Shown in pieces: positions 51,334 through 55,893 of a stretch of 64,000 nt of DNA. Location of the stretch: assembly GCF_000172155.1 (NCBI RefSeq), contig NZ_ABIZ01000001.1, positions 2,265,105-2,329,104 on the forward strand. Direction: 5' to 3'. The DNA comes from Verrucomicrobium spinosum DSM 4136 = JCM 18804 (GTDB lineage Bacteria > Verrucomicrobiota > Verrucomicrobiia > Verrucomicrobiales > Verrucomicrobiaceae). Numbering within the stretch: position 1 is the first letter of the stretch; each line of letters opens with the position of its first letter. The notes under the pieces were generated by a model. That model was not told the DNA's origin, did not search any database, and saw nothing but the letters and a program-made list of their open reading frames with translations. Both the position numbers and the translations under genes were made by a program.

Positions 51334-51405
51334 AAATTAGGAATTAGGAATTAGGAATTAGGAATTAGGAGGTTTGAGGTTTGAGGTTTGAGGTTTGAGG
51401 TTTGA
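51334..51405. repeat. Two adjacent 7-bp tandem repeats
   Basis: GAATTAG repeated about five times (51334-51368) directly followed by GGTTTGA repeated five times (51371-51405). They lie between the response regulator and the 3' end of the tRNA array. Such heptamers can change copy number. Confidence 0.9.
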
Positions 51406-51423
51406 GGTTTTGAAATGGTTGGG

Positions 51424-51496
51424 TGCTCACGACAGGATTCGCACCTGCACTGGCGGCGCTCTCAACGCCGTGCCTCTGCTGTTGGGCTACGCGAGC
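51424..51496 (-). tRNA. tRNA-Leu(GAG), short variable loop
   Basis: Acceptor GCTCGCG/CGTGAGC, A73. Anticodon arm CGGCG TTGAGAG CGCCG. Five-base variable loop instead of the long arm expected for Leu. D-loop AACAGCAGA (AG for GG); T-loop TGCGAAT. Confidence 0.85.
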
Positions 51497-51514
51497 GAAG
51501 TGATGGTAAATTGG

Positions 51515-51587
51515 CAACCCCAGCCGGATTCGCACCGGCATTCTTCGATAGAAAGTCGAAGGTCTTGGCTGATTAGACGATGGGGTC
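51515..51587 (-). tRNA. tRNA-Glu(TTC)
   Basis: Acceptor GACCCCA/TGGGGTT, G73 and encoded CCA. Anticodon arm TTCGA CTTTCTA TCGAA. D-loop AATCAGCCA; T-arm GCCGG TGCGAAT CCGGC with G55. Confidence 0.85.
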
Positions 51588-51628
51588 AAGGGGAAAGGGA
51601 AGAGGGATAAGCCTGCTTCTAGAATTGG

Positions 51629-51719
51629 CGGAACGCGGAGGACATGCTCCCCATCGCACAGTAGAGTACGACGAATCCGTTAGCACCGGGCCCCAGCGCG
51701 CTTGTCTGGTTCACGTTCC
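51629..51719 (-). tRNA. tRNA-Ser(GCT), long variable arm
   Basis: Acceptor GGAACGT/GCGTTCC, G73 and CCA encoded. D-stem CCAG/CTGG with loop ACAAGCGCG. Anticodon loop GTGCTAA. Class II variable arm. T-loop AGCATGT, so 54-56 reads AGC. Confidence 0.8.
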
Positions 51720-51887
51720 GTTGAGAGAGGTAAGGGTTTAGACTGAGTATGATGGGTTGGCGTAGCACCAAGAGAGGAGGGAAGCCTGAGATGGGTGGTT
51801 TCGCGCTCAGGTGGAGGAGGTGAAGAGTAGTTTGAGGGCGTGTTGGCCTTGCCGGATCACGAGACGTTCGAACCTGGGGCAATGAGA
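51720..51887. other. Spacer inside tRNA array, nothing recognised
   Basis: About 170 bases without a cloverleaf or convincing ORF on either strand. It is longer than the other spacers and could hold a lost tRNA. Confidence 0.4.
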
Positions 51888-51890
51888 TGG

Positions 51891-51963
51891 TCCCGATGGC
51901 AGGAGTTGCACCTGCACTGACTCCGGTTTGAGCGGAGCGCCTCTGCTGTTGGGCTACACCGGG
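51891..51963 (-). tRNA. tRNA-Leu(CAA), short variable loop
   Basis: Acceptor CCCGGTG/CATCGGG, A73, CCA encoded. Anticodon arm CTCCG CTCAAAC CGGAG. Variable loop five bases. D-loop AACAGCAGA; T-loop TGCAACT. Confidence 0.85.
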
Positions 51964-51977
51964 GGAAGAGAAAATGG

Positions 51978-52053
51978 TGCTCGTGGCAGGACTTGCACCC
52001 GCATGGGTCTATTACGGTTTCAAGGAGTTAGAAACTCCAGCCGATACACGAGC
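51978..52053 (-). tRNA. tRNA-Arg(TCT)-like, no recognisable D-arm
   Basis: Perfect acceptor GCTCGTG/CACGAGC, A73, CCA. T-arm GCGGG TGCAAGT CCTGC. After TA the sequence goes into TCGGC and an anticodon arm GGAG TTTCTAA CTCC; no D-stem precedes it. About 20 bases containing ACCGTAATAGAC follow before the T-arm. The sister gene at 52153 has the same layout. Confidence 0.7.
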
Positions 52054-52072
52054 ATGGTGGAGATGAAGTTGG

Positions 52073-52145
52073 TCCCGGCGGCAGGATTCGCACCCGCACT
52101 GGCTCCGTTCTAAGCGGAGTGCCTCTGCTGTTGGGCTACGCCGGG
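52073..52145 (-). tRNA. tRNA-Leu(TAG), short variable loop
   Basis: Acceptor CCCGGCG/CGCCGGG, A73, CCA. Anticodon arm CTCCG CTTAGAA CGGAG. Variable loop CCAGT. D-loop AACAGCAGA; T-loop TGCGAAT. Confidence 0.85.
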
Positions 52146-52152
52146 GAAATGG

Positions 52153-52228
52153 TGCTCGCGGCAGGACTTGCACCCGCATGAGTCTGTTACGGTTTCAATG
52201 GGTTCGAAGCCCAAGCCGATACGCGAGC
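52153..52228 (-). tRNA. tRNA-Arg(TCG)-like, no recognisable D-arm
   Basis: Acceptor GCTCGCG/CGCGAGC, A73, CCA. Anticodon arm TTGGG CTTCGAA CCCAT lies only five bases after TA; then TGAAACCGTAACAGACTC before the T-arm GCGGG TGCAAGT CCTGC. The AACAG motif typical of this array's D-loops appears after the anticodon arm. CGG near the start can pair with CCG beyond the anticodon arm. Confidence 0.7.
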
Positions 52229-52247
52229 ATGAATAGTAAAGTGGACC

Positions 52248-53673
52248 CACAGTCATCCCATAGCCCTGCAAAAGCAGCGCCAGAGGCTTGAGTTGGTGAT
52301 GTTTTGAAGTGCCTTTTGCGAAAGTGATTTCTCAAACGGGGCGGTCCTGCTCCGTTATGCGACGCCTGCTGTCCCATAGACGGGGGGCTCCAGCCCAGGC
52401 AGATACACGCTTTGCGGGCTGGCTCGCATCTTCCATGGACCGCCTGCTGTCCCATAGAACGCCAGCAATCTGAGCAGATCCACCCGGCTCCAAGTCACCC
52501 CTCGGATCATCGTGAAGAGGCGGGTGAAGCTGTGCGGCCAGCCCGATACTTGTGCCAGGAACCGCAGCAGCACATAGAGCAACAGGGCCGCCCAGAGCTG
52601 CCAGCGGATCGCGTTTTTGCTATGTCCCAAAAAATCACAGATGCAGAGCGTTTGCTTGATCTGCTTGAAGAACACTTCAATGCCCCAGCGGCTCTGGTAG
52701 AGTTCTCCTACCGTGCTGGCGGCCCATTCTGTCTGGTTGGTGATAAAGGCCATGCGCACTTCCTTGCCGTCAAGCTCCACGAGCATCTCCACCCGGCGCA
52801 GCGGGCCGGGATGTTGCGAAAGGCTCCTGGCTCCTTTGAGCACAATGAGGTCATCGCGCAGCACCTTGCCTTGCGGCCGTGCCTGGAGCTTGCGCGTCAC
52901 CCGGTAGCTCATGTTGTCCTTGGCACGGGTGACCCAGAAGATGCCCCGCCCGGTCAACTCCCAGAGGTGGGCAAAGTTGATGTAAGCCTTGTCAAACAAG
53001 GCAATTTCCCCGTCTTTGAGGCTGGCACAAAGCGCGCGGGAGCGCGAGTCATCATGATGAGAGGCTTCTTCGATGATGGCAAAGGCTGGCAGGAAGGTTT
53101 GCAGGTTGAGACGCAAATGGAGCTTGGCCGCCGCCTTGCGCTGCCGGTGCTTGGCCCAACTCATACAGTTGGCCACCAGGGCGATGGTGCTGGAGTCGAT
53201 GGCGTAGATGGCCCGTCTAAACCGCCGGGGCAGTCCTTCATAGCGCAGGCCAAACCCGGGGTGCCGATGCTGGAGATGATCCAACATCTTCCAAAAGAGG
53301 GTCTCCATCAGGTCGCTGTCCCGATTCTTATTGGCATGGGACAGGGTGTTGCGGGCTGGCGGTGTCGCTCCGCGGATGGCAGCGAGGGCCCCGGCATGAT
53401 GCCTCAAGCTGTCGCACACATCGTTGAGACTGATGGAGTGTGTCAGTTGCGCGTAGAGCAGGCTGACCACGTGACTCCAGGAACTGAAGGTGCGCGGCTG
53501 GCTGCCGTGGTGGTGTTGAGCGCAGAGGTTCGCGACCAAGTGCCCGGGAATGAGCTTGCAAAGCTGCCCCAGAACGCTTCCAATGACTTTGGCTGGTTTG
53601 AATTTCATCTCAGGCCTACCCTGTGTGGGGTAGGCCGCCAGTCACCTTTTTGTTTCGCTGTGGGACGGCTGTG
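52248..53673 (-). mobile_element. Complete IS4-family insertion sequence in the tRNA array
   Basis: 1426 bp. Terminal repeats CACAGTCATCCCATAGC (left) and CACAGCCGTCCCACAGC (right, complement). The 9-bp duplication AAGTGGACC is at 52239-52247 and 53674-53682, in the range usual for IS4 elements. It lies between two tRNA genes and breaks neither. Confidence 0.9.
52355..53608 (-). CDS. IS4 family transposase
   Basis: 417 residues. N-terminal DUF4372-like helical part (about 5-75), then the DDE domain: YAIDSSTIALV (first Asp, about 137), GEIALFDKAYINF (second Asp, about 212) and YQSRWGIEVFFKQIKQTL, the Y-(2)R-(3)E-(6)K signature of IS4. C-terminal segment intact. It is transcribed in the same direction as the tRNA genes, which may or may not allow read-through from the promoter-proximal half to the distal half. 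Confidence 0.95.
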   Translation of the reverse strand: MKFKPAKVIGSVLGQLCKLIPGHLVANLCAQHHHGSQPRTFSSWSHVVSLLYAQLTHSISLNDVCDSLRHHAGALAAIRGATPPARNTLSHANKNRDSDLMETLFWKMLDHLQHRHPGFGLRYEGLPRRFRRAIYAIDSSTIALVANCMSWAKHRQRKAAAKLHLRLNLQTFLPAFAIIEEASHHDDSRSRALCASLKDGEIALFDKAYINFAHLWELTGRGIFWVTRAKDNMSYRVTRKLQARPQGKVLRDDLIVLKGARSLSQHPGPLRRVEMLVELDGKEVRMAFITNQTEWAASTVGELYQSRWGIEVFFKQIKQTLCICDFLGHSKNAIRWQLWAALLLYVLLRFLAQVSGWPHSFTRLFTMIRGVTWSRVDLLRLLAFYGTAGGPWKMRASPQSVYLPGLEPPVYGTAGVA

Positions 53674-53715
53674 AAGTGGACCTGTGAGTTGCTTGCTGCC
53701 CCGCAATTCACCAAG

Positions 53716-53789
53716 CGGCTCCGGATGGATTTGCACCATCAACCACCCGGTCCAAAGCCGGGTGCTCTGTCTGATTGAGCTACGGAGCT
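53716..53789 (-). tRNA. tRNA-Gln(TTG)
   Basis: Acceptor AGCTCCG/CGGAGCC with a weak first pair (A1:C72), G73. D-stem GCTC/GAGC, loop AATCAGACA. Anticodon arm CCCGG CTTTGGA CCGGG. T-arm GATGG TGCAAAT CCATC. No CCA encoded. Confidence 0.85.
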
Positions 53790-53924
53790 CCTCGTGGTGA
53801 ATCTGAAACATGGTGGCAAGGGGGATTGGTCGGGCGCGTCCGAGTTGCACGGCTCAACTCCACACCGAATGGAGCATGCTGCTGTCACATCCCGCGCCCG
53901 GGATCTTTGAGCACTGAAAACTGG

Positions 53925-53998
53925 TCACGCAGGCAGGACTCGCACCTGCTTCCACTTGTCTCCCGGACAAGTGCCTCGTCTGCTTTGGCCTCTGCGTG
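53925..53998 (-). tRNA. tRNA-Pro(GGG) with C33
   Basis: Acceptor CACGCAG/CTGCGTG (C1-G72) with A73, standard for Pro, and CCA encoded. Anticodon arm CTTGT CCGGGAG ACAAG: position 33 is C, not T. D-loop contains GCAGACGA; T-loop TGCGAGT. Confidence 0.8.
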
Positions 53999-54032
53999 AG
54001 CTGGGGTTCATGAAACACTGAAGGGAAGTTGG

Positions 54033-54105
54033 ACGCACGCCCCGGACCTTCACCGGGTAATCCGGTTTTGCAGACCGGTGGCGCGAGGACTTTGCCTTGC
54101 GTGCG
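54033..54105 (-). tRNA. tRNA-Cys(GCA)
   Basis: Acceptor CGCACGC/GCGTGCG, T73 as required for CysRS, CCA encoded. D-stem GGC/GCC, loop AAAGTCCTCGC. Anticodon arm CCGGT CTGCAAA ACCGG. T-loop TGAAGGT, the only one with A at position 56; the D-loop has CT where C18:G55 and T19:A56 could pair. Confidence 0.8.
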
Positions 54106-54123
54106 ATTGGCGGGAGAAATTGG

Positions 54124-54195
54124 GGTGATCAACGGGACTTGCACCCGCACGTCAGCCTTCACAGGGCTGGATGCTAACTATTACATCATGATCAC
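54124..54195 (-). tRNA. tRNA-His(GTG)
   Basis: Acceptor GTGATCA/TGATCAC. C73 with G at -1 (54196), the His identity pair, then CCA. Anticodon arm CAGCC CTGTGAA GGCTG. D-loop TAATAGTTAG; T-loop TGCAAGT. Confidence 0.85.
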
Positions 54196-54223
54196 CATTT
54201 GATAAGGGGGCTAAAAAGTTTGG

Positions 54224-54315
54224 CGGAAGCCGGAGGGCATGCTCCCCATTCCACTGTTGGAGTGGAACGATCCGTGTTCGAGACGGTCCCGGCGCGCTGG
54301 TCCGGTTCAGCTTCC
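54224..54315 (-). tRNA. tRNA-Ser(CGA), long variable arm
   Basis: Acceptor GGAAGCT/GGCTTCC, G73 and CCA. D-stem CCGG/CCGG with loop ACCAGCGCG. Anticodon loop CTCGAAC. Variable arm with TTCCACT/AGTGGAA stem. T-loop AGCATGC. Confidence 0.8.
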
Positions 54316-54343
54316 AGCATATAGAGGGGGACGGAGAAAAAAG

Positions 54344-54433
54344 CGGAAGTCAGTGGACATGCTCCACAGCCCGGGAAATCCAGGCCCGGCCGGTTTCCAG
54401 CCGGCGGCGGCTCGCTTGTCCGCTTTGACTTCC
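54344..54433 (-). tRNA. tRNA-Ser(GGA), long variable arm
   Basis: Perfect acceptor GGAAGTC/GACTTCC, G73. D-stem GCGG/CCGC, loop ACAAGCGAG. Anticodon arm GCCGG CTGGAAA CCGGC. Class II variable arm. T-loop AGCATGT. No CCA encoded. Confidence 0.8.
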
Positions 54434-54457
54434 AAAATTGTTGAGGTTGAGAAATGG

Positions 54458-54528
54458 TGCGCCATGCCGGATCTGCCCCGGCACCCGCGGTTTGGAAGAC
54501 CGACATGCTGCTGTTACACCAATGACGC
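54458..54528 (-). tRNA. tRNA-Gly(TCC)
   Basis: Acceptor GCGTCAT/ATGGCGC, A73 (U is usual for Gly), CCA encoded. Anticodon arm CGGT CTTCCAA ACCG. D-loop TAACAGCAG. T-arm GCCGG GGCAGAT CCGGC. Confidence 0.75.
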
Positions 54529-54542
54529 GTTAAATGAAGTGG

Positions 54543-54614
54543 TGGCTGCGTCCGGTATCGCGCCGGACTCTCTTCGTCTTCAGCGAAGCGCTAATCTGTC
54601 TCAGCTACACAGCC
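54543..54614 (-). tRNA. tRNA-Phe(GAA)
   Basis: Acceptor GGCTGTG/CGCAGCC, A73, CCA. Anticodon arm CTTCG CTGAAGA CGAAG. D-loop AGACAGATT. T-arm TCCGG CGCGATA CCGGA. Confidence 0.8.
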
Positions 54615-54627
54615 TTTTGAAAAGTGG

Positions 54628-54700
54628 TCCTTCCGGCAGGGTTCGCACCTGCGACCTGCGGCTTATCGGGCCGCTGCTCTGCTGACTGAGCTACGAAAGG
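54628..54700 (-). tRNA. tRNA-Ile(GAT) with C33
   Basis: Acceptor CCTTTCG/CGGAAGG, A73, CCA. D-stem GCTC/GAGC, loop AGTCAGCA. Anticodon arm GCGGC CCGATAA GCCGC: C at position 33. T-arm GCAGG TGCGAAC CCTGC. Confidence 0.8.
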
Positions 54701-54733
54701 TGGTGGAATAAAATGAGGTGGTATGAAATAAAG

Positions 54734-54821
54734 CGGAGCACCAGGGACTTGCACCCTGAACGCCTGGAATGCAGGCGCGGCTGGTTTCAAAGCAGCGTCC
54801 TCGTCTGGCCGGTCGTGCTCC
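54734..54821 (-). tRNA. tRNA-Ser(TGA), long variable arm
   Basis: Acceptor GGAGCAC/GTGCTCC, G73. Anticodon loop TTTGAAA in a GCTG/CAGC stem. Variable arm CGCCTG/CAGGCG. T-arm CAGGG TGCAAGT CCCTG. D-loop GGCCAGACGA. No CCA encoded. Confidence 0.8.
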
Positions 54822-54860
54822 ATGCAATGCTATGTGGCAATCTAAGAAATTAAGAAATGG

Positions 54861-54933
54861 TCGCGCACCCCGGTGCTGCCCCGGGCGACGCCTCGTTCCA
54901 AACGAGTCGGGTTCGCTGGCTCCCTCATGCGCG
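54861..54933 (-). tRNA. tRNA-Pro(TGG)
   Basis: Acceptor CGCGCAT/GTGCGCG (C1-G72), A73, CCA. D-stem GGG/CCC, loop AGCCAGCGAA. Anticodon loop TTTGGAA. T-arm CCCGG GGCAGCA CCGGG. Confidence 0.8.
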
Positions 54934-54952
54934 ATGAAGTTGTTGAAAAAAG

Positions 54953-55038
54953 TACCGCGTCCAGGTAATGCTCCTGGCCGATCCTCGAGGGATTTTGGTT
55001 TTACAGACCAATTCGTGTCTTTAACGAACTACCGCGGC
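54953..55038 (-). tRNA. tRNA-Tyr(GTA), long variable arm
   Basis: Acceptor GCCGCGG/ACGCGGT, A73. D-stem TTCG/CGAA, loop TTAAAGACA. Anticodon arm TTGGT CTGTAAA ACCAA. Variable arm ATCC/GGAT. T-arm CCAGG AGCATTA CCTGG. No CCA encoded. Confidence 0.85.
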
Positions 55039-55051
55039 GTTGGGAAAATGG

Positions 55052-55120
55052 TTGCGGGACGTGGGGTCGCACCACGATGGGAAAGCTTATGAGACTTTCC
55101 AGGTTCTCAACCTTCCCGCG
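55052..55120 (-). tRNA. Initiator-like tRNA-fMet(CAT) with reduced D-arm
   Basis: 5' CGCGGGA, 3' TCCCGCA then A73 and CCA: the C1:A72 mismatch that marks initiator tRNAs. Loop CTCATAA as in fMet. The D-arm is a bare hairpin AGGTT GAG AACCT; the anticodon stem is about seven pairs (GGAAAGT/GCTTTCC) and lacks the three G-C pairs next to the loop. T-loop TGCGACC. Confidence 0.75.
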
Positions 55121-55176
55121 GTTGAATTTGGACGGCTCCAGAATTGGAAACTGGACCAGAATTGACGGAAAAATGG

Positions 55177-55250
55177 TAGCGGGGGCAGGAATCGAACCTG
55201 CTCAGTCTCCGGTTTATGAGACCGGTGCCTTCCCATTTGGCGACCCCGCC
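55177..55250 (-). tRNA. tRNA-Met(CAT), canonical core
   Basis: Acceptor GGCGGGG/CCCCGCT, A73, CCA. Anticodon arm CCGGT CTCATAA ACCGG. D-loop AAATGGGAA with GG; T-arm GCAGG TTCGATT CCTGC. The only gene of the array with normal G18G19 and T55. Could be elongator Met or a lysidine-type Ile. Confidence 0.9.
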
Positions 55251-55269
55251 GTTTAACGACGACGAATGG

Positions 55270-55339
55270 CACGGCGTCCCGGTGCTGCTCCGGGCGGGCT
55301 GAGTTTTGGAGGCTCTGCTGCGCGGCTGGCGCACGCCGT
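55270..55339 (-). tRNA. tRNA-Trp(CCA)
   Basis: Acceptor ACGGCGT/ACGCCGT (A1-T72), G73 and CCA, as in bacterial Trp tRNA. Anticodon loop CTCCAAA in a weak stem. D-arm is GCGC CAGCC GCGC, a short-loop hairpin. T-arm CCCGG AGCAGCA CCGGG. Confidence 0.75.
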
Positions 55340-55893
55340 GTTCGACATTTTTTGACTAATTGTTTCCTGAAGCGGAAACGCTGTATTTTGACTCTTCAAT
55401 AAATGATCGCTCACCGCTGCCAGCTCTCCTTGAGCTCGCACCCGCAGGTGATTTCACGGCGGATGTTTCGGTGATTTTGAGGCACACCTCCTAAATTGGG
55501 TGCAGCGAGGTTCACCCTGATGGAGGGTGTAGTCGGGCTGCGGCCCAGGCCTGTTGGGATTTGTCTGAAAAGTGGATGCCCGCAGAGGGGAGAGGCGTTG
55601 GTGCGGTGCAAAAGTATCCCTAAGTTAGGCCACCCAGTTCCAACTAAGTGGATAAGTGGATGGGATAACTTGACAGTGGGAGGGCGTGCTGCCACTGTTA
55701 TAGTGGAAGCCAGACCATGGAACCCAGTCTCTGCTAGGGACGGTTTATGTATCGGTGACCAATCCGGCTCCGTCGTCAGTTGCCGCTGACGGCGGGGCCT
55801 TTTTCACCTGAGGGGGCGGATGTTTGTTGGGTGGGGCACGCTCCTTTCCAGGAGTGGACCATTAAGGTCCTTGTGTAAGTGGTTGAAAATGAA
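55340..55893. other. Region upstream of the tRNA array
   Basis: No confident gene. The - strand promoter of the array should be in the first 100 bases. A + strand hairpin CGTCAG TTGCCG CTGACG at 55774-55791 followed by a T-run (55799-55804) is terminator-like and could end a small + strand RNA starting near 55690. A GCGGGTGCGAGCTC stretch on the - strand near 55433 recalls the array's T-arms and may be a tRNA relic. Confidence 0.4.

Follow-up and report, generated by a model that had tools for sequence, protein, structure and literature searches.

Bacterial tRNA genes were called 'surprisingly uniform' in a 2014 review (PMC4033280), and a survey of cyanobacterial tRNAs describes ordinary, conserved D-arms (PMC5733544). 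Translation in E. coli can use a tRNA-His without a D-arm, both in vitro and, once a single pnp mutation is present, in vivo (PMC11551756); folds of this kind are thus not necessarily barred by the ribosome. Supplementary tRNA sets have also been described, and the trn operon of Anabaena is silent until translational stress (PMC10272220). Among phages, a tRNA-Tyr restores infection when a retron effector depletes the tRNA-Tyr of the host (PMC11555353), and it has been proposed that phage tRNAs escape tRNA nucleases through changes in their anticodon loops (PMC10264068). In the open-access literature that we searched, no bacterial or phage tRNA was described as permuted or pseudoknotted in its mature form; a previous description may exist, since most subscription papers were outside the scope of that search.

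We examined two tRNA-Arg genes within a 64,000-nucleotide stretch (hereafter, the window) of the genome of Verrucomicrobium spinosum, a species reported to have 62 tRNA genes (PMC12283558). Both genes have the order acceptor (7)-TAT-CGG-C-anticodon arm (17)-TGAAA-CCG-TAAYAGA-5 variable bases-T arm (17)-acceptor (7)-A-CCA. Written in full, the UCG gene is GCTCGCG TAT CGG C TTGGG-CTTCGAA-CCCAT TGAAA CCG TAACAGA CTCAT GCGGG-TGCAAGT-CCTGC CGCGAGC A CCA. The five variable bases are CTCAT and CCCAT in these genes and TCCAT in one congener. The parts of the two genes are as follows.

52150-52228, minus strand: tRNA-Arg(UCG) gene, putative permuted D-arm layout, CCA encoded, 79 nt
52222-52228, minus strand: UCG gene, acceptor 5' strand, pairing with 52154-52160 (7/7 pairs)
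52216-52218, minus strand: UCG gene, CGG, proposed D-stem 3' strand (S1a), invariant in 6 genes, assigned by analogy with a covarying helix
52198-52214, minus strand: UCG gene, anticodon arm, anticodon TCG at 52205-52207
52190-52192, minus strand: UCG gene, CCG, proposed D-stem 5' strand lying 3' of the anticodon arm (S1b), invariant, assigned by analogy
52183-52189, minus strand: UCG gene, TAACAGA, proposed displaced D-loop, assigned from AAYAG in many D-loops of the array and from linker/T-loop coupling
52161-52177, minus strand: UCG gene, T arm, loop TGCAAGT (G55, no U55)
51975-52053, minus strand: tRNA-Arg(UCU) gene, same layout as the UCG gene, CCA encoded, 79 nt
52041-52043, minus strand: UCU gene, CGG, proposed D-stem 3' strand (S1a)
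52023-52039, minus strand: UCU gene, anticodon arm, anticodon TCT at 52030-52032
52015-52017, minus strand: UCU gene, CCG, proposed D-stem 5' strand (S1b)
52008-52014, minus strand: UCU gene, TAATAGA, proposed displaced D-loop, assigned from linker/T-loop coupling
51986-52002, minus strand: UCU gene, T arm, loop TGCAAGT

The acceptor is paired at 7/7 positions and the T stem at 5/5 (one of them G-U) in both genes, and the anticodon stem consists of 4 bp with a T-T at its base; this T-T and the T-stem G-U are the sole stem flaws. Because the anticodon arm begins at base 15, there is no D-arm hairpin between base 8 and that arm. Neither gene has G18G19 or U55C56, and AAYAGA and TGC stand there instead. 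An earlier note had described intact acceptor, T and anticodon arms, an anticodon arm starting only about five bases after positions 8-9, and about 20 bases after it containing AAYAGAC; these observations held and were confirmed from the sequence, and the gene ends were amended to 51975 and 52150 to take in the encoded CCA. The same note had argued that a layout shared by two genes could be no single accidental defect. This argument is weakened: the gene order around them is Arg-Leu-Arg-Leu, so that the two genes look like tandem duplicates, a likely inference, and their common layout is not independent evidence. The point is supported instead by conservation across species.

Standard detection tools do not recover a cloverleaf. 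The earlier note held that a consistent standard cloverleaf obtained through an alternative fold would refute it; this check was run with ARAGORN and Rfam, and no such cloverleaf was found in either gene by ARAGORN or by the Rfam tRNA model (RF00005), the latter matching neither gene at E up to 10. As read from the sequence, bases 27-43 form no anticodon stem. The tRNA-Sec model (RF01852) scored the UCG gene at 23.7 bits (cut-off 47) through an alignment that deletes most of the D arm, and gave no listed match for the UCU gene. Identity as tRNA-Sec was considered and rejected: RF01852 is the best Rfam match of several of the permuted tRNAs described below, but at 23.7 to 32.5 bits against the cut-off of 47, and the anticodons of the permuted tRNAs are UCU, UCG, CCU or GUA, never UCA. 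Folding energy was no more decisive. Compared with shuffled sequences, both genes gave z of -2.18, with 6/200 and 5/200 shuffles equal or better; the minimum-energy folds are not tRNA-like and compete with the T arm, and the tRNA-like fold lies 4.5 and 3.3 kcal/mol above the minimum in a model that leaves out tertiary contacts. We rejected folding energy as an arbiter, because several tRNAs of the array in which the genes lie, ordinary ones included, have minimum-energy folds that are not cloverleafs.

The layout is conserved in congeners. A covariance model of the window-type Arg genes (R2) found, at E <= 1e-10 among 68 genomes of the family, six genes, two in each of three congeners (the genome of the window included), and none in a fourth congener, whose genome is 76% complete. 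In the two other congeners the Arg genes are identical to those of the window at 75-78 of 79 bases without a gap, whereas the spacers are identical at 313/373 and 320/381 positions (∼84%) with 80 and 262 gap columns; this comparison was limited to 51401-52245, and one Ser gene, read by eye, was counted as 'spacer'. Across the six genes of the genus, two anticodon-stem pairs and one acceptor pair are altered on both sides, i.e., compensatorily. The contrast between gap-free genes and gappy spacers, together with these compensatory stem changes, shows that the window layout is under purifying selection.

What conservation does not supply is proof of the helix that would replace the D-stem. CGG and CCG co-occur in 6/6 genes of the genus, offering 3 bp with zero variation, and just 3 columns vary among the 20 bases after the anticodon arm. 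Some 3-bp run between the two segments is expected by chance (probability 0.74-0.75), and the chance of CCG in a shuffled 20-base segment is 0.155. A second, crossing helix (S2, see below) is unsupported in these six genes, with 66.7% of cells paired in the one register counted; in the next register, read by eye, two pairs are present in 6/6 genes and a third in 2/6. In other genera of the same family, the arrays contain Arg(UCU) or Arg(UCG) genes that form ordinary cloverleafs. Beyond the genus, R2 scores highest on two Arg(UCU) genes of the ordinary kind in a sister genus, matching them in the 3' half (40.0 and 37.7 bits). It is possible that the window genes were rewired from an ordinary Arg(UCU) gene, but this is a hint and no more, Leu genes scoring closely below (36.3 and 35.4 bits).

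Evidence for the strand order also comes from relatives. DNA matches to the array region occur in 23 of 57 genomes (the genome of the window included), and two genomes (G050 and G048) carry Arg(UCU) genes with the strand order of the window genes and better helices. A model built from these two genes (R1) matched 28 of 386 genomes of the order at E <= 0.01; by inspection, 23 of these have the Arg form, two have a Tyr(GUA) form only, and three have ordinary-looking tRNA-Ser. The 25 genuine genomes belong to two sister families (19 in f3, 6 in f2), and no genome of the window's own family was matched by R1. A script also located the Tyr form in one genome of a further family (L031, f4) and beside Arg forms at L050, L058, L062, L077, and L098. 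In a separate collection, genome_contigs, six named contigs with a permuted tRNA were found, all titled Verrucomicrobia; the pattern used there was too loose, giving at least 119 stretches, of which 80 were examined and all 80 scored, and at least some of the six contigs apparently repeat genomes already counted. A class-wide search with a further family model, R3, matched 25 of 384 genomes at E <= 0.001, just two of them strongly (G168 and G181, both known from the earlier search); the other 23 scored 25.2 to 29.4 bits, mostly over a 75-nt span that suggests ordinary tRNAs (these loci were not read). As only 11 candidates per genome were scored, this search is weak evidence of absence. In one genome (G109), the permuted Arg gene (L069 1501-1606) has an internal tandem repeat over the S1b and linker region.

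In this wider family the order is acceptor, 3 nt, S1a, a spacer (1 nt in the Arg form), anticodon arm, S2a, an A-rich loop, S1b, a linker, S2b, and T arm. The S1a:S1b helix encloses the anticodon arm, and S2a:S2b crosses S1, making a pseudoknot. In 20 chromosomal Arg rows, 94.2% of cells are paired, 13 pairs are altered on both sides, and S1 is 97% paired; in 14 distinct phage rows (including one Tyr gene and the doubtful L330), double-sided changes occur in 5/5 S1 pairs and 2/3 S2 pairs. A combined set of 35 rows, chromosomal and phage, Arg and Tyr, has 94.1% of cells paired and a covariation of 0.767, as against 0.197 when shuffled (0/500 shuffles reaching it) and at most 0.119 in a slid control. 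Taken alone, S1 in these rows is 96% paired with covariation of 0.777 versus 0.171, and S2 is 98.9% paired with covariation of 0.527 versus 0.131, neither being reached by any of 500 shuffles. Two of the five whole-structure measures, doubly changed pairs and pair types, were reached by 21/500 and 16/500 shuffles, respectively. The first T-stem pair is unpaired in 35/35 rows, so the T stem of the family is 4 bp.

A referee may object that the alignments produce the pairing that they are used to measure, since they were fitted to models containing S1 (S2 was not in those models), and sequence kinship does inflate covariation counts. An alignment-free exchange of partner strands gave 0/1000 for S1 in both Arg (38) and Tyr (13) genes and 0/1000 for S2 in Arg genes; S2 of the Tyr genes, the sequence of which hardly varies, fails alone at 391/1000. 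A smaller run of the same kind gave 8/500 (S1) and 1/500 (S2) for 20 Arg genes, and 0/500 (S1) and 333/500 (S2) for 8 Tyr genes. The occurrence of four Watson-Crick pair types at single S1 positions is hard to explain without real pairing. We conclude that covariation shows the S1 and S2 helices to be real in the wider family. As to the rows, of 30 R1 places those in G186, G373, and G233 resemble tRNA-Ser of the ordinary kind and were excluded; two that resemble the Arg form, in G109 (with the internal repeat) and G087 (matched in part), were not used; L330 was excluded from the 35-row set; and the duplicates L304 and L397 and the repeats of L362 and L366 were not scored with R3.

The linker between S1b and S2b behaves as a D-loop. 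Among array cloverleafs of relatives, a TTC T-loop goes with GG in the D-loop in 87 of 88 cases, and an NGC T-loop occurs with GG in 33 of 479 and without it in 446 of 479 (572 of 686 places had the ordinary layout and were at most 80 nt; five with other T-loops were set aside, and T-loops with C56 only were counted). The permuted tRNAs follow suit, with GG in the linker of 29/29 TTC rows and 4/21 NGC rows. This count comprises 51 rows, among them G071; L287 (T-loop ATC, with GG) falls in neither class, and L067 (G289), identical in its tRNA letters to L066, is absent. Of the four NGC exceptions, L064, L065, and L068 have Gs that extend the G-run of S1b, so that their reading depends on register; the Tyr gene of L098 is a true exception. 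The phage Tyr gene L373 combines TTC with GG, and 11/12 NGC Tyr rows lack GG. In the TTC-type Arg rows, GG is followed by A in 27 of 28. A20 is an identity base for ArgRS in E. coli, and the A after the linker GG would be A20. Coupling of linker to T-loop is thus shown by covariation in the wider family, as a tendency with 4/21 NGC exceptions. Because cloverleaf D-loops show this coupling, we read the linker as the D-loop, and S1a and S1b as the 3' and 5' strands of the D-stem, respectively. On this reading the D-arm of the family is permuted around the anticodon arm, rather than missing. The window genes, with a TAAYAGA linker lacking GG and a TGC T-loop, agree with the family tendency (17/21).

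The fold is also found in phages. Loose patterns in IMG/VR gave 54 loci, 10 of which matched R3 at E < 1e-6 (L330 being doubtful), on contigs of up to 424,529 bases, and a Tyr pattern gave 95 stretches, of which 80 were examined and 15 matched. A window-type pattern had 0 matches in viral_contigs. One copy compared by blastn with 50,697 phage records matched 53 records, with at least 80% of the query covered in 9; for two other copies the matching records numbered 343 and 335 (31 and 39 with such coverage), and the IMG/VR copy L314 matched no phage record. Shorter blastn matches were left uncounted, as they perhaps reflect T-arm similarity alone. Nine cultured phages carry permuted genes (AhSzw-1, Lazarus, Arash, Va1, Av-05, ME3, D260, PG07, and 1.063.O), AhSzw-1 having two in tandem, Arg(CCU) and Arg(UCU). 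The phage genes are located as follows.

L310, L296, L306, L314, L297, L287, L331, and L344: permuted Arg genes on IMG/VR contigs, several of these contigs being 100 to 424 kb
L326, L373, L362, L352, L366, and L396: permuted Tyr genes on IMG/VR contigs, several of these contigs being 100 to 424 kb
L436 1400-1487 and 1494-1578; L437 1495-1579; L438 1494-1580; L439 1494-1582; L440 1499-1583: permuted Arg genes of cultured phages
L441 1501-1585; L442 1494-1580; L443 1492-1578; L444 1494-1580: permuted Arg genes of cultured phages

R3 matches 10/10 of the cultured-phage genes, and at none of these places is a tRNA annotated. ARAGORN detects 0/10 of them, yet it finds ordinary tRNAs in 7/9 of the same phage stretches; in some phages the permuted tRNA is close to ordinary tRNA genes. 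In the blastn rows listed for these copies, no tRNA is named at the matched place; the entry there is a hypothetical protein in some, and other records are unannotated. Two side observations were made in these sequences. A viral contig (L330 8849-8933) holds a possible Ser(GCU) tRNA with no D-arm hairpin and a long variable arm, which is weak and doubtful, and a group I intron match (L441 2088-2424) lies near the permuted tRNA gene of Acinetobacter phage ME3.

The two window genes belong to a tRNA array on a single contig of 8,220,857 bases that has 62 tRNA matches. The features of the array that concern us are the following.

51421-55340, minus strand: tRNA array with both Arg genes, ∼22 tRNA genes
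52355-53608, minus strand: transposase ORF (DDE_Tnp_1, DUF4372) of an insertion between Arg(UCG) and Gln(UUG)

A script gave 17 places in the array, with some anticodons misread, and the remainder were read by eye; ARAGORN and the Rfam tRNA model each find 8 tRNAs there (9 in another run). Most array genes lack G18G19 in the D-loop and have an NGC, not TTC, T-loop; the Met gene at 55174-55250 is ordinary. Elsewhere in the genome ARAGORN found 52 genes on 48 stretches spanning 53 other tRNA matches, and 52/52 have GG in the D-loop region and TTCRA; this ordinary set includes Arg ACG, CCG, CCT, and TCT. In two congeners no insertion separates Arg(UCG) from Gln(UUG), and the two genes are neighbors. 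In this strain the insertion stands upstream of both Arg genes within the array, and their transcription is possibly disturbed. Three tRNA-Leu genes of the array (51421-51496, 51888-51963, and 52070-52145) have 5-nt variable loops, whereas the ordinary Leu genes of the genome have a long variable arm. The Leu D-arm sequence of the array (TAGCCCAAYAGCAGAGGC) also occurs in 22 viral stretches (L319-L340), 10 of which were run through ARAGORN and have 3 to 35 tRNA genes each. This hints that phage and chromosomal tRNA arrays have undergone exchange. A transposase scan of viral contigs gave no match.

We favor the reading that the window genes encode tRNA-Arg in which the D-arm is topologically permuted, not lost, and give it a probability of roughly 0.6; RNA synthesis, charging, and decoding are inferred. 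In this view, CGG (bases 11-13), 3' of the acceptor side, would be the 3' half of the D-stem, one base from the anticodon stem as in an ordinary tRNA; the anticodon arm would come next, followed by CCG as the 5' half of the D-stem, by TAAYAGA as the D-loop, and by the variable bases and T arm. A vertical arm, with the D-stem stacked upon the anticodon stem, and a D-loop/T-loop elbow could then form with an altered strand order. In sister families and phages the second helix, S2, adds a crossing to this order and makes it a pseudoknot. It is an inference that the window genes use the CGG:CCG helix, that they are transcribed and processed into RNAs that accept arginine, and that these RNAs decode AGA/AGG and CGN. 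As for their use, they most likely form part of a supplementary set beside the full ordinary one, an altered elbow and D-arm letting them escape an enzyme or toxin that attacks ordinary tRNAs; this last step is a guess, and one less likely to hold than not.

The alternative put forward in the earlier note, a missing D-arm or a changed order of the arms, is supported by the absence of a standard cloverleaf, by the conserved layout, and by covarying tRNAs elsewhere with the same order. Its suggestion that CGG near base 11 pairs with CCG agrees with the family helix, which starts at base 11 with a one-base spacer in the Arg form, but remains unproved in the window genes, where both strands are invariant. 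The window genes would be a minimal form without S2 that fits the family scheme at the same positions; this is a fit and not a proof, resting on an invariant helix of 3 bp. They share with the family an anticodon arm that begins within about 10 bases of the acceptor and a long stretch ahead of the T arm. Homology with the pseudoknot family is not shown: R1 (E up to 10) run on the window's Arg genes and on 20 array loci did not match the Arg genes, and R1 and R3 run on the window's own genome did not match them either. The motif AAACCGT, common to the window genes and several family members, is a weak hint of homology. The window genes themselves may possibly be a variant or a convergent case.

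The rival that survives best is that these are plain D-armless tRNAs of the animal-mitochondrial type, with a short acceptor-anticodon link and with the 20 following bases as an unstructured variable region. It remains possible, since CGG:CCG is short and invariant, since chance would be expected to provide a 3-bp run (0.74-0.75), and since the models of the pseudoknot family miss the genes. Against it, the genes are of normal tRNA length (79 nt with CCA) and show no shortening, the position of the helix and its one-base spacer agree with the covarying family, the linker contains a motif like that of array D-loops, and only 3 of the 20 columns vary in six genes. A second and unlikely rival is that these are supplementary tRNAs or tRNA-like RNAs working outside ribosomal translation, e.g., as amino-acid donors or decoys. 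In its favor, most of the array lacks G18G19 and U55 and the ordinary set is present in the genome (52/52). The cell-wall tRNA-Gly of staphylococci likewise lacks these G18G19/U55 features. However, the arrays cover many amino acids with intact anticodon arms, the two paralogues have different anticodons and stems changed to match, a sign of decoding, and some phages have the fold near ordinary tRNA genes. That the genes are decaying pseudogenes of a degenerate array is very unlikely: they are unseen by ARAGORN and the Rfam tRNA model, other array genes score low or are missed, and an insertion element splits the array, but gap-free identity at 75-78 of 79 bases against gappy spacers of ∼84%, compensatory changes in two stems, and an encoded CCA all speak against decay. 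A standard cloverleaf reached through an alternative fold, an intron, or another gene boundary would suit minimum-energy folds that differ from the layout, but is all but excluded by the lack of an RF00005 match at E up to 10, by a tRNA-Sec alignment (23.7 bits) with its D arm mostly deleted, and by the absence of a stem in bases 27-43.

The reading of a permuted D-arm can be extended into a bolder one, that there is a natural class of non-cloverleaf tRNA in which the D-stem closes around the anticodon arm and the D-loop follows, usually pseudoknotted. Such a class would serve Arg and Tyr, occur in phages (T4-like, T5-like, and very large) and in arrays of Verrucomicrobiales, be missed by ARAGORN, have arisen or been captured more than once, and include the window genes as its minimal form; it would have been kept because its members decode and yet are spared by tRNA-cutting enzymes that recognize the ordinary D-arm or elbow. 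Taken jointly, these statements seem to us slightly likelier to hold than to fail. As with the anticodon-loop changes of phage tRNAs, evasion of tRNA-targeting defense by a permuted D-arm is possible, by analogy.

What appears to be new here is the tRNA topology of the wider family, not necessarily the window genes. If the interpretation is correct, bacteria and cultured phages naturally build the tRNA shape from strands in another order, and Arg and Tyr tRNA genes overlooked by phage annotation come to light. The ribosome, EF-Tu, ArgRS, and TyrRS could be probed with such natural molecules, which would also offer a testable idea for why phages carry tRNAs.

Compared with known systems, the window genes are like the canonical bacterial tRNA-Arg (RF00005) in acceptor, T arm, anticodon arm, CCA, and Arg anticodons, with a 3' half resembling the Arg(UCU) of a sister genus, and unlike it in having D-loop-like bases 3' of the anticodon arm, no D-arm after base 8, and no G18G19 or U55. 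The array recalls the Anabaena trn operon of 26 supplementary tRNA genes (PMC10272220), a clustered supplementary set beside a housekeeping set, which differs in lying on a cyanobacterial megaplasmid. Several permuted tRNAs have tRNA-Sec (RF01852) as their best Rfam match, below cut-off, but differ from it in having UCU, UCG, CCU, or GUA rather than UCA anticodons and no D-stem hairpin in the usual place. The permuted tRNA genes of algae and an archaeon (PMC4033280) also have tRNA parts in changed order; there the gene alone is permuted and processing restores an ordinary tRNA, whereas here, by inference and without a search for splicing motifs, the order would differ in the mature RNA. Finally, the D-armless tRNAs of animal mitochondria and the synthetic mini HisT (PMC11551756) share the missing D-arm hairpin and the short acceptor-anticodon link, but the window genes are not shortened, and the ∼20 bases before their T arm are, in the wider family, the site of covarying helices and of a D-loop equivalent.
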